A DNA stretch of 64,000 bases, taken from positions 4,446,422-4,510,421 of the forward strand of contig NZ_CP051627.1 in the NCBI RefSeq assembly GCF_023208015.1, read 5' to 3'. The stretch is from Thermobifida alba. Lineage in GTDB: Bacteria; Actinomycetota; Actinomycetes; Streptosporangiales; Streptosporangiaceae. Of this stretch, positions 33,858-46,970 are shown piece by piece. The position numbers and the translations under genes were made by a program. The stretch's first letter is position 1. Every line of letters begins with the position of its first letter. Under the pieces are notes generated by a model. The model had not been told where the DNA came from. It made no database searches and worked only from the letters and a program-made list of their open reading frames with translations.

Positions 33858-35234
33858 ATGACCGAGAGCAGGAACTACCGGCTGGTGCACGGCGGTGGTG
33901 ACGAATCGGAGATCCCGCACGTGCTCATCGTCGGCGGTGGGTACCTGGGCATGTACACCGCGAAGCGGTTGGAGAAGAAGTTGGGTCCCGGCGAGGCCCG
34001 CATCACCATCGTCGACCCCAACTCCTACATGACCTACCAGCCCTTCCTGCCCGAGACGGCCGCCGGAAGCATCTCCCCGCGCAACGTCGTCGTCCCGCTG
34101 CGCCAGGTCCTGCACCGGACCCGCGTGCTCACCGGCCGGGTCGTCCGCATCGAGCACGCCAAGCGCAGGGTCGAGTTCGAGTCGAACCAGGGCGAACTCC
34201 GCGACATCGCCTACGACTACCTCGTCATGGCCGCCGGGGCCGTCTCGCGGACCCTGCCCATTCCGGGCCTGGCCGAGCACGGCATCGGCATCAAGACCGT
34301 CCAGGAAGCCGCCTACCTGCGCAACCACGTGCTGGAGCAGCTCAACATCGCCGACTCCACCGACGACCCCGAGGTGCGGCGCAAGGCCCTGAACTTCGTG
34401 TTCGTCGGCGGCGGGTTCGCGGGGGCGGAGGCCGTCGCGGAACTGGAGGACCTCGCCCGCGACGCCACCCGGATCTACCCGTCGATCAGTATCGACGACC
34501 TGCACTTCTACCTCATCGAGGCGGCCGACCGCATCCTGCCCGAGGTGGGCCCCGAGGTCGGCACCAAGGCGCTCAACCAGCTGCGGCGGCGCGGCATCGA
34601 CGTGCGCCTGTCGACCTTCCTGGAGTCGGCGGTCGACCAGCGCATCAAGCTCAGCGACGGCACCGAGTTCGAGGCGGGCACCCTGGTGTGGACCGCCGGG
34701 GTCAAGCCCAGCCCGGTCGTGCAGGCCTCCGACCTGCCGCTCGGCCCCAAGGGCCACGTGGACACCAGCGAGTACCTGACCGTCAACGGGGTGGAGAACG
34801 CCTTCGCAGGCGGCGACAACGCCCAGGTGCCCGACGGCGAGGGCGGCTACTACCCGCCCAACGCCCAGAACGCGGTCCGCCAGGCCCCGGTCCTCGCCGA
34901 CAACGTCATCGCCACCCTGCGCGGCGGGGAACTCAAGCCCTACCGGCACAAGAACCTGGGCGCGGTCGCCGGACTCGGCATGAACAAGGGGGCGGCCCAG
35001 CTGCTCGGCAGGATCAAGCTGACCGGCCTCCCGGCCTGGCTGGCCCACCGCAGCTACCACCTGCTGGCGGTGCCCACCTTCAACCGCAAGCTGCGGGTCC
35101 TGTCGGACTGGACGCTCGGCTTCTTCCTGCGCCGCGACTTCGCGTCGATCCCGGAGATGAGCCAGCCCCGCCAGGCGTTCACCGAGGCGGCCCGCCCGCA
35201 GGTCGAGGACGGCCACCTGCGCCGCGTCTCCTGA
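33858..35234 (+). CDS. ndh: Type II NADH dehydrogenase (NDH-2)
   Basis: The 458 aa single-subunit flavoenzyme oxidises NADH and reduces quinone without pumping protons. The FAD-binding motif is HVLIVGGGYLGMYTAKRLE, the quinone/FAD region SYMTYQPFLPETAAGSI, the second nucleotide fold FVFVGGGFAGAEAVAELE, and the C-terminal FAD contact AFAGGDNAQVP. The C terminus is amphipathic (TLGFFLRRDFASIPEM), as expected for peripheral membrane attachment. The upstream Rex operator means expression likely follows the NADH/NAD ratio. A strong hairpin follows the gene. Confidence 0.95.
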   Translation: MTESRNYRLVHGGGDESEIPHVLIVGGGYLGMYTAKRLEKKLGPGEARITIVDPNSYMTYQPFLPETAAGSISPRNVVVPLRQVLHRTRVLTGRVVRIEHAKRRVEFESNQGELRDIAYDYLVMAAGAVSRTLPIPGLAEHGIGIKTVQEAAYLRNHVLEQLNIADSTDDPEVRRKALNFVFVGGGFAGAEAVAELEDLARDATRIYPSISIDDLHFYLIEAADRILPEVGPEVGTKALNQLRRRGIDVRLSTFLESAVDQRIKLSDGTEFEAGTLVWTAGVKPSPVVQASDLPLGPKGHVDTSEYLTVNGVENAFAGGDNAQVPDGEGGYYPPNAQNAVRQAPVLADNVIATLRGGELKPYRHKNLGAVAGLGMNKGAAQLLGRIKLTGLPAWLAHRSYHLLAVPTFNRKLRVLSDWTLGFFLRRDFASIPEMSQPRQAFTEAARPQVEDGHLRRVS

Positions 35235-35300: not shown

Positions 35301-35363
35301 CGTGTCGGGGAGGTAAATCCCCGAGCCACGGAAAAAGCGCCGTGTGACCGGTATGCTGGATAA

Positions 35364-35437
35364 GCCCTCGTAGCCCAATGGTAGAGGCAGGCCCCCTAAA
35401 AGGGTCACAAGTGTCGGTTCGAATCCGACCGAGGGTA
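35364..35437 (+). tRNA. Atypical tRNA, anticodon TAA (Leu-like), short variable loop
   Basis: Cloverleaf: acceptor GCCCTCG/CGAGGGT, D-arm GCC-CAATGGTAGA-GGC, anticodon stem GGCCC/GGGTC with loop CCTAAAA and anticodon TAA at 35397-35399, 6-nt variable loop ACAAGT, T-arm GTCGG-TTCGAAT-CCGAC, discriminator A then CC. The anticodon and the Leu-like D-loop suggest tRNA-Leu(UAA), but normal tRNA-Leu has a long variable arm, and position 33 is C instead of the near-universal U. A -10-like TATGCT lies at 35352-35357. It looks transcribed but non-standard. Confidence 0.7.
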
Positions 35438-35477
35438 CCCGGCCCCGGTCCACCGACCCGGCGGCCCGCGAACCTCC

Positions 35478-35512
35478 GAGGCCCGGCCCCGACCACGGGG
35501 TCCGGGCCTTTT
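35478..35512 (+). terminator. Rho-independent terminator after the tRNA
   Basis: Stem AGGCCCGG-CCCC pairs with GGGG-T-CCGGGCCT (one bulged base) and is followed by TTTTT ending at 35512. This is one of the few hairpins in the window with a true T-run. Confidence 0.8.
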
Positions 35513-35749
35513 TCCGTCGCGGCCCCAACCCCCGCACGCGACCGTCCGGCAAAGAAGCCACCAGGACGTGATCTCCACGCTGGCGGAGTGCACTTCGCGG
35601 GTAGGAATCCCAGTGGCGGCCGCCGCACAGCCCGTCCCCGGCCGCGAACCGACCCGTCCGACCCGAGACGCCGCCCCCACGGACTCCCACAAGGAGCCCG
35701 CCAGGCGTCGGCCCAGTCCGACCACGACAACACACCAGGGGGTCACCTC

Positions 35750-37378
<1,629 letters not shown>

Positions 37379-45243: not shown

Positions 45244-45340
45244 TTACAGGGCATGCATTTAACTTGGAGTCATCCAGTCACGGAGCCCGCTGTCCTCCGG
45301 TGACTGTGCATGTCAGTCACGTCACTTCCTTGGGAGAGCC

Positions 45341-45673
45341 ATGTCCGCATTCCTCCCGACCGACGACTCCCGCCGGTCCTTGCTCGCCCGCCTGCAAGAG
45401 GAGCTTCACCGGCTCGGGGCATCCGCCCTGCTCGCCCTGTCCGCCACCGCGCATCCGGTGCTCTACGTCCGCGTCTGGGGGCGCCTGGTTCCGGTCGTGG
45501 TGGTGCGGGACGCCTCCGGTCACCGGTGGTTCATCTGGGGGCGGACCGGTCAGGCGCCCGCCAGCCACGTGGAGGGGGCCGCCGCCGTGCTGTGCGGGCT
45601 GGAGCCCCCGCCCGCCCGGTCCCGGACCGCCCCGGTGGCCGCGCGCCGCGCCGCACGGAAGGACGCCGCCTGA
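45341..45673 (+). CDS. Small protein paired with an RsbW-like ATPase
   Basis: The 110 aa protein has a C-terminal core LLALSATAHPVLYVRVWGRLVPVVVVRD, then HRWFIWGRTGQAPASHVEGAAAVLCG, followed by an Ala/Arg-rich tail. Homologues of this shape occur next to DUF397/DUF5753 genes in Streptomyces relatives, as far as I recall; no function is known to me. Its TGA overlaps the ATG of the next gene (TGATG at 45671-45675), so the two are translated together. It diverges from the XRE gene across the palindromic promoter. Confidence 0.7.
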   Translation: MSAFLPTDDSRRSLLARLQEELHRLGASALLALSATAHPVLYVRVWGRLVPVVVVRDASGHRWFIWGRTGQAPASHVEGAAAVLCGLEPPPARSRTAPVAARRAARKDAA

Positions 45674-46164
45674 TGACCGACAACGGCACCGGCGAGTCCG
45701 CCTCCGGCCGCCTGTGCGCGGTCTCCGAATTCTGGGAACTGCCCGGCGATCCCGCGCTCTGCCCGGGCCTGCGCCGCCGCGTCCGCGCCAGCCTCACCGG
45801 CTTCCCGCACACCGCCGCCGACGCCGAACTCGTGGCCGCCGAACTGTTCGCCAACGCCTGCCGCCACTCCCTCAGCGGCGACGGCGGCAAGGTCTCGGTG
45901 AGCCTGTCGGGCTTGCGCACCGGCCTGGTCCTGGTCACCGTCACCGACCAAGGCCCCAAAGCCGACCCGGCCACCGGAGGGCCCCGCGTCCCCCAGGTCC
46001 GCCCGCCCGGCGACCCGCTCACCCCCGGCGGGCGCGGCCTGCGCCTGGTCGCCGCGCTCACCACCGACTGGGGCCACTGGGCCACCGACGAGGGCGGCCA
46101 CACCGTCTGGGCCGTCTTCGAACCCCCGCTGCCCGCCTACGCCTACCTCCCCCACGAACCCTGA
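45673..46164 (+). CDS. RsbW-like anti-sigma-type ATPase
   Basis: The 163 aa protein is a GHKL/HATPase_c domain on its own. N-box: AELVAAELFANACRHS; G1 box: VTVTDQGPKADP; G2 box: GGRGLRLVAAL. The C-terminal region is WGHWATDEGGHTVWAVFE. Such stand-alone kinases act as anti-sigma factors or switch proteins, by phosphorylating or sequestering a partner. It is coupled to the small gene upstream, and the XRE-DUF5753 and DUF397 genes are opposite. The partner is unknown. Confidence 0.85.
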   Translation: MTDNGTGESASGRLCAVSEFWELPGDPALCPGLRRRVRASLTGFPHTAADAELVAAELFANACRHSLSGDGGKVSVSLSGLRTGLVLVTVTDQGPKADPATGGPRVPQVRPPGDPLTPGGRGLRLVAALTTDWGHWATDEGGHTVWAVFEPPLPAYAYLPHEP

Positions 46165-46295
46165 CCCGACCCGGTGGCCCCCGCCCGCAGACCTCCTCCG
46201 GTTTCCGGGATTTCCGGGGGCCACCCCCTGGGCGGCAACGGGCGCGTCGTCTAGTGTTCTCCTCGGTATTACCAGCGAGTAAAGACGGAGACCCG

Positions 46296-46970
46296 GTGTC
46301 GCGGCTGCTTTCCTGGATGGTGCGGACGGCCTGGTCGTGGGCTCGGCGCAGGGCGGACATCCGCCACGGCTCGCGCGCCGCCGCGCGCTTCGCCTCCTAC
46401 GGCGAGGGCACCTCCATCGCCTTTCCCCCCGCCACCATCTTCGGCGAACCCTGGATCGAACTGGGCTCGCACACCCTGATCGGCGCGGACATCACCCTCA
46501 GCGCCGGGTACGTGCCAGGACTCGACCTCGGCCCCCGGCCGCTGCTGACCATCGGCGACGGCTGCACCATCGGCCGCGGCTCGCACGTGGTGGCGCACCG
46601 GTCCATCGTGTTCGGCGACCACGTCTTCACCGGCCCCTACGTCTACGTCACCGACCAGAACCACGGCTACGCCGACCCCGACACCCCGATCGGATACCAG
46701 TGGCCCACCGAGGCTCCGGTCCGCATCGGCTCGGGCTCCTGGATCGGCGCGAACGCGGTGATCCTGCCCGGCGTGACCCTGGGCCGCAACTGCGTGGTCG
46801 CGGCGGGCGCGGTGGTGCGCCCCGGCGAGTACCCGGACCACAGCGTCATCGCGGGCGTGCCCGGGAAAGTGGTGCGCCGCTACGATCCGGACACCGGCTG
46901 GCACCCCCCGATGCGCGAGGACCTGGTCGTCCGCCGCGACGACGCCGACACCGAACCCGCCGCGGGGTGA
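46296..46970 (+). CDS. Left-handed beta-helix acyltransferase
   Basis: The 224 aa acetyltransferase of the maltose/galactoside O-acetyltransferase type shows hexapeptide repeats, such as TIGDGCTIGRGSHVVAHRSI and GSGSWIGANAVILPGVTLG, and the family's catalytic His region TDQNHGYADPDTPIGYQ. The end ...VIAGVPGKVVRRYDPDTGWH is also typical. The acceptor is probably a sugar, but not determinable here. GTG 46296 has GGAG nearby. The open frame extends to 45264 but that part overlaps the RsbW-like gene and is not real. Confidence 0.85.
   Translation: MSRLLSWMVRTAWSWARRRADIRHGSRAAARFASYGEGTSIAFPPATIFGEPWIELGSHTLIGADITLSAGYVPGLDLGPRPLLTIGDGCTIGRGSHVVAHRSIVFGDHVFTGPYVYVTDQNHGYADPDTPIGYQWPTEAPVRIGSGSWIGANAVILPGVTLGRNCVVAAGAVVRPGEYPDHSVIAGVPGKVVRRYDPDTGWHPPMREDLVVRRDDADTEPAAG

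Follow-up and report, generated by a model that had tools for sequence, protein, structure and literature searches.

Can a bacterial tRNA without a long variable arm still serve as the leucine tRNA for UUA? The question is raised by a cloverleaf tRNA gene in a 64,000-nucleotide stretch of the Thermobifida alba genome (hereafter the window, meaning the whole stretch of DNA analysed). Read from the sequence, the gene at 35364-35437 (+) has the anticodon UAA, a 6-nt variable loop, C33 and a G1.U72 pair. An earlier note on this DNA had described this cloverleaf and left three readings of it side by side: a degenerate bldA-like gene, a tRNA of altered identity, or one used outside translation. According to the excerpted text of a 2023 review, tRNA-Leu has a long arm everywhere except in animal mitochondria (PMC9976931).

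Sequence and Structure of the tRNA Gene

The cloverleaf was confirmed by the sequence, by ARAGORN, which called 35364-35439 as tRNA-Leu(taa), and by the Rfam tRNA family (RF00005), which matched 35364-35437 with 49.9 bits, above the cut-off of 29. This was the lowest Rfam score among the 52 tRNA matches of the genome. The 7-bp acceptor stem is followed by the discriminator A and then CCC, with the CCA not fully encoded. The predicted fold had an energy of -28.5 kcal/mol (z -2.6), and 3 of 200 shuffles were equally good.

The variable loop of 6 nt falls short of the 10 nt or more of a class II tRNA-Leu; in the same genome, the CAG and GAG tRNAs have 15 and 16 nt. Allo-tRNAs are another uncommon kind of tRNA in bacteria, and leucine anticodons occur among them (PMC7609411, as excerpted). 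Unlike their 8/4 or 9/3 acceptor/T-stem arrangement, the UAA tRNA has 7 + 5 pairs and a normal acceptor branch. In the excerpted review, the identity elements of E. coli tRNA-Leu are A73, A15-U48, G18G19 and A20a, and the human mitochondrial UUR tRNA-Leu is specified by A73 and A14 (PMC9976931). When A14 was taken from the human mitochondrial case into the E. coli list, every element (A73, A14, A15-U48, G18G19 and A20a) was present in the UAA tRNA.

A scan of the tRNA region for the sigma-70 consensus gave no match; a -10-like box (TATG[CA]T) 5' of the gene was seen by alignment instead, kept in 10/10 aligned relatives, with the rest of the flank mostly different. The terminator with a T-run that had been reported after the tRNA was recovered by folding (Table 1). 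A simple terminator scan of the region reported none, perhaps on account of a one-base bulge in the hairpin. The flanking genes encode a pyridine-nucleotide-disulphide oxidoreductase (33858-35234) and a member of the aldehyde dehydrogenase family (from the ATG at 35750).

Table 1. Features of the UAA tRNA locus, in positions of the window.
Feature	Position	Strand	Basis
Short-variable-loop (class I) tRNA-Leu, anticodon UAA	35364..35437	+	ARAGORN, Rfam, model R1
-10-like element TATGCT, 6 nt upstream of the tRNA	35352..35357	+	TATG[CA]T conserved in aligned relatives
Leucine-type D-arm: 3-bp stem G10-C25, C11-G24, C12-G23; mismatch C13.A22; A14 A15; G18 G19; extra nucleotide A20a	35373..35388	+	Sequence, alignment A1, counts
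Anticodon loop CCTAAAA; C33 at 35396; anticodon TAA at 35397-35399	35395..35401	+	Sequence
6-nt variable loop ACAAGT, ending in U48 (A15-U48)	35407..35412	+	Sequence
Intrinsic terminator hairpin with T-run (five T)	35478..35513	+	Fold -29.9 kcal/mol, z -5.4

The Leucine tRNA Set of the Genome

The genome is a single contig of 4.90 Mb, rated 100% complete, and the 50 of its tRNA matches that lie outside the window were read with ARAGORN. By Rfam and ARAGORN there is one tRNA per leucine anticodon. The GAG (85 nt) and CAG (83 nt) tRNAs are normal and long-armed. The other three, namely the UAA tRNA of the window, the CAA tRNA (G000:C1:602324-602397) and the UAG tRNA (2725764-2725837), have short variable loops. 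No second UAA tRNA was found among the 52 matches. As the UAA tRNA is the sole one found and its CAA and UAG sisters are also short, it is not a stray copy beside a normal gene.

A covariance model (R1) was built from 40 short forms, including the three of this genome, so that their high scores of 77.2-85.6 bits arise partly by construction; all other tRNAs in the genome scored at most 60.9 bits. The UAA tRNA, itself among the 40 building sequences, scored 80.2 bits versus the 60.9 of the best non-Leu tRNA.

One LeuRS with the usual Pfam domains was found above the cut-off, with weaker matches far below. This LeuRS (L263, G000:C1:2445478-2447928) is without the insert of ~55 residues that is found before the KMSKS motif in Thermus LeuRS.

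Conservation and Distribution of Short Forms

By BLAST, the 74-base UAA tRNA was present at full length and with 97-99% identity in 3/3 same-genus genomes, and its flanks had largely diverged. A pattern running from the D-arm to the anticodon had matches in 142/150 genomes of the order, compared with 0 for a reversed-pattern control. In an alignment of 40 short-loop leucine tRNAs (alignment A1), 99.1% of cells were paired, 18/20 pairs had changed on both sides, and the covariation score was 0.761 versus 0.215 in shuffles. Given the near-identity within the genus, the order-wide pattern, the conserved box and the covarying cloverleaf, the gene is therefore not in decay, and no decay was found in its relatives.

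In a sample of the class, 138/158 genomes had at least one R1 match (E up to 1e-16); the 30 matches read were all short leucine forms, 29 labelled Leu and one Phe(aaa) by ARAGORN with the same loop, and the others in this and the phylum sample are assigned by score. In the phylum sample, 56/198 genomes had at least one match (E up to 1e-17), which by listing order split into 15/17 inside the class and 41/181 outside; the counts near the threshold are soft, a Lys tRNA having reached 67.8 bits and one short leucine tRNA only 64.3. Sixteen new matches from the phylum sample were read as 15 Leu and 1 Phe(aaa). A stricter UAA pattern in the phylum sample gave 2/296. Outside the order, the short form is patchy and varied.

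A collection of named genomes was also scanned. Among at least 120 matching stretches, 119 of the 120 listed were short-loop cloverleaves, of which ARAGORN labelled 114 as Leu(taa) and 5 as Phe(aaa) for the same loop; the remaining one, from a Rivularia assembly, was no tRNA. The named carriers among 80 of the listed stretches include Nocardiopsis, Streptosporangium, Nonomuraea, Actinomadura, Pseudonocardia, Lentzea, Blastococcus, Geodermatophilus, Brachybacterium and Tsukamurella.

Anatomy of Short and Long Forms

The short forms differ from the long ones in the D-arm as well as in the variable loop. Among 211 distinct bacterial short forms, many of whose UAA members were collected by the D-arm pattern, which forces part of the signature, C12-G23 was present in 211, C13.A22 in 209 and A9 in 208. 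The 59 long forms had G9 in 57, G12-C23 in 57 and G13.A22 in 48. Because the UAA pattern fixes part of the D-arm, the 56 short CAA and UAG forms, which were not chosen by pattern, were recounted separately. These had C12-G23 in 56, C13.A22 in 55, A9 in 56, A15-U48 in 54 and A73 in 56. The variable loop was of 5 nt in 178 of the 211 short forms and of 6 nt in 33.

The leucine elements were common to both forms: A14 (short 211/211, long 59/59), A15-U48 (207/211 and 59/59), G18G19 (209/211 and 56/59), A20a (203/211 and 56/59) and A73 (210/211 and 59/59). The single short exception at position 73 has G73 (L113). A short UAG leucine tRNA (L331, G274:C11:72598-72672) is atypical at position 8 (C8) and in its D-arm.

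The occurrence of the two forms was compared in 29 genomes, comprising the window's own and 28 others from a set of 32, on which a model of long leucine tRNAs (R2) was run; G536, G494 and G338 were left out. We found 85 of the 87 possible UAA, CAA and UAG genes, 42 short and 43 long. The UAA tRNA was short in 19 genomes and long in 10, the CAA tRNA short in 15 and long in 13 (not found in G463), and the UAG tRNA short in 8 and long in 20 (not found in G191). In none of the 29 genomes was any of these three anticodons seen in short and long form together. The GAG tRNA was long in 29/29 and the CAG tRNA in 28/29 (not found in G473); a further CAG copy, short and lying beside other tRNAs, is present in G018 and in G463. 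Four genomes (G040, G371, G472 and G295) have the full classical long leucine set. Ten lower-scoring R1 matches were Lys, Arg or Met tRNAs, and none was leucine.

Each of the 29 genomes had one LeuRS match at E up to 1e-100. At least two builds of the enzyme were present, without an insert before the KMSKS-like motif (12 parsed) and with it (12 parsed), as parsed in 24/29 genomes (G039, G031, G241, G252 and G217 were left out). In a search for a LeuRS suited to short tRNAs, no link was seen in the 24 parsed genomes. Each build is found both alongside short tRNAs and in genomes that have none (G472 without the insert; G295, G040 and G371 with it).

Phages and tRNA Arrays

A BLAST search of a phage collection with the window's tRNA returned 29 records, and short leucine tRNAs were read in all eight that were opened; as the phages were chosen by similarity to this tRNA, they establish that short forms occur in phages, but neither how often nor in which direction they were transferred. 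The hosts were Streptomyces (two phages), Rhodococcus, Microbacterium, Synechococcus (two) and Sinorhizobium, and one record was an uncultured phage. Several of the eight also carry long leucine tRNAs. In the uncultured phage (LR745206.1, a 635-kb record), a stretch at 387849-390922 (L464) holds one short and one long UAA leucine tRNA, and one short and one long UAG leucine tRNA.

Dense arrays of differing tRNA genes, some of them poorly formed, were observed at L259 (G004:C72), L247 (G006:C133), L261 (G012:C27) and L322 (G536:C1:4297800-4299310). They hold short-arm leucine tRNAs for CAA, CAG or GAG, and look like mobile tRNA arrays.

The short leucine tRNAs in phages and host arrays, together with a D-arm sharply unlike that of the long forms, are what could be expected if the short forms were remoulded class I tRNAs, or had been acquired from phages or mobile tRNA arrays, and did not arise by arm loss in each chromosomal tRNA-Leu. 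This origin is possible, but we regard it as doubtful. The D-arm keeps its leucine topology, and the C13.A22 mismatch was found in 0/46 non-Leu tRNAs parsed in this genome (a list that the window's Gln tRNA stands outside). Furthermore, two long CAA tRNAs (L229 and L415) have A9 and C12-G23 with G13 and may be half-way forms between long and short.

We also consider, as an unlikely extension, that the short-arm leucine tRNAs could be a distinct mobile kind with its own rewired core. Such tRNAs would have spread across phyla through phages and tRNA arrays, repeatedly displacing the long-arm chromosomal copies for rare leucine codons, perhaps because they evade nucleases or toxins that take hold of the long arm.

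Codon Use and Codon Meaning

A simple codon-bias script predicted 314 genes in a 400-kb sample of the genome; their 101,990 codons included 2 TTA, 25 CTA, 305 TTG, 3088 CTC and 7705 CTG. The 51 ORFs of the window with orthologues were less extreme, with 5 TTA, 16 CTA and 80 TTG in 18,906 codons. By either sample, the three short tRNAs of the genome read the rare leucine codons. One TTA (codon 336 of the ORF at 45264-46970 of the window) is also TTA in both of the relatives aligned at that point (G002 and G024), despite the rarity of the codon.

As with bldA, the gene encodes the only UUA-reading tRNA found and TTA is rare. Thus, the part of the earlier suggestion that likened it to bldA stands, as the UUA decoder; that it is degenerate is not supported, as the gene is conserved and is the sole UAA tRNA found. 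The C33 residue removes the usual U-turn base, which should weaken decoding. In combination with the scarcity of the codon, it could make UUA a translational brake, as with bldA in Streptomyces, which would add to a functional reading of the gene and not replace it. C33 was present in 35/147 distinct bacterial short UAA tRNAs and in one short GAG copy; it was absent from the long forms, with U33 in 11/11 long UAA tRNAs. However, U33 is kept in 112/147 of the short UAA tRNAs. For a position bias such as that in Streptomyces, TTA provides two codons in the 400-kb sample and five in the window, the latter in ORFs whose starts are uncertain. According to the excerpted text of a FEMS review (PMC4255298), the part that bldA plays in development may be confined to the Streptomycineae, and we consider such a regulatory slow decoder quite unlikely here.

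To compare the meaning of the codons, 820 ordered ORF pairs were taken from regions that are orthologous among six genomes, with a mean identity of 80% and both directions of a pair counted. Outside TTA, TTG and CTA, the partners of TTG were CTC, CTG or CTT in 951/1094 cases and those of CTA in 115/155. For TTA this was 3/4, too few informative comparisons for a reading of UUA. The corresponding fractions for the controls were 0.85 for CTT, 0.84 for CTC, 0.88 for CTG, 0.18 for ATA, 0.03 for GTA and 0.05 for TTT. By this comparison UUG and CUA mean leucine, and their reassignment was not supported, as TTG and CTA sites exchange with CTC and CTG as leucine codons should.

It is very improbable that the UAA tRNA carries another amino acid, with UUA (and UUG and CUA for its sisters) reassigned in the lineage. 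A short arm is unusual in a leucine tRNA, C33 is present, and tRNA arrays contain a pool of odd tRNAs; against these stand the exchange of TTG and CTA, the leucine identity elements retained by the tRNA, and the single LeuRS. Neither the altered identity proposed in the earlier note nor its suggestion of a use outside translation was supported, given the same identity elements and the leucine-like behaviour of UUG and CUA, the codons of the sister tRNAs.

Discussion

That the gene is a bldA-like tRNA now decaying as a pseudogene is hardly credible: it has the lowest Rfam score of the 52, C33, G1.U72 and an incomplete CCA, but the normal tRNA-Leu(TAA) elsewhere and the decay in relatives that the earlier note had named as marks of a pseudogene are both missing, there being no other UAA tRNA found in the genome, and the gene stays near-identical within the genus between largely diverged flanks, with covarying helices.

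We estimate a probability of roughly 87% that the UAA tRNA, the sole UUA reader found in the genome, is a functional leucine tRNA that has lost its long variable arm and would be charged by the single LeuRS. On sequence grounds, the case consists of its being the only UAA tRNA found, its conservation, the conserved -10-like box, the terminator, the leucine identity set and its membership of a widespread short-arm kind to which the sole UAG and CAA tRNAs of the genome also belong. C33, the lowest Rfam score in the genome, and one G73 and four departures from A15-U48 among the short forms count against it.

As a functional leucine tRNA, it would be recognized by the one bacterial LeuRS found through A73 and the elbow (A14, A15-U48, G18G19 and A20a), and charging would resemble that by E. 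coli LeuRS, which does without the arm. The change in the D-arm from G9, G12-C23 and mostly G13.A22 to A9, C12-G23 and C13.A22 may refold the core, and the refolded core would let a loop of 5-6 nt serve instead of the long arm. Loss of the arm on three isoacceptors may have been tolerated because these GC-rich genomes make little use of UUA, UUG and CUA; the tRNAs for the common CUC and CUG codons would have kept it.

The UAA tRNA shares with canonical class II bacterial tRNA-Leu, including Streptomyces bldA, the anticodon, the leucine elements listed above, the reading of UUA, and the 3-bp D-stem with a 13.22 mismatch. It differs from them in the missing long arm, in A9, C12-G23 and C13.A22, and in the C33 of this copy. 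Animal mitochondrial tRNA-Leu likewise has no long variable arm; the UAA tRNA, however, is a stable GC-rich bacterial cloverleaf that stands beside long-arm isoacceptors with one LeuRS found.

The open-access literature, as excerpted, yielded two mentions of a tRNA-Leu with a short loop in bacteria, one explicit but in passing and the other implicit. The former is one sentence on a short-loop tRNA-Leu(TAG) in a tRNA gene cluster of Mycobacterium mucogenicum and M. phocaicum (PMC6582537, as excerpted). The short variable loop on a leucine tRNA is shared, but in those species the cluster-borne copy lies beside a normal one, whereas here the short forms are the sole copies found of three isoacceptors. 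The latter is the statement that tRNA-Leu-2, -3 and -5 of M. tuberculosis have long loops (PMC11541572, as excerpted), which hints that other tRNA-Leu there are without them. No paper describing short-arm tRNA-Leu as usual in bacteria was found in the open-access literature; such a description may exist in subscription papers.

A long arm is generally taken to mark out the leucine tRNAs of bacteria, and the short form is a widespread exception to it in one phylum. Genomes that hold both long and short isoacceptors, with one LeuRS found, provide a natural test of what LeuRS reads. The short leucine forms also show how a tRNA may cross structural classes with its amino acid unchanged. If there is a bldA-like UUA switch in these organisms, it would rest on a differently built tRNA.
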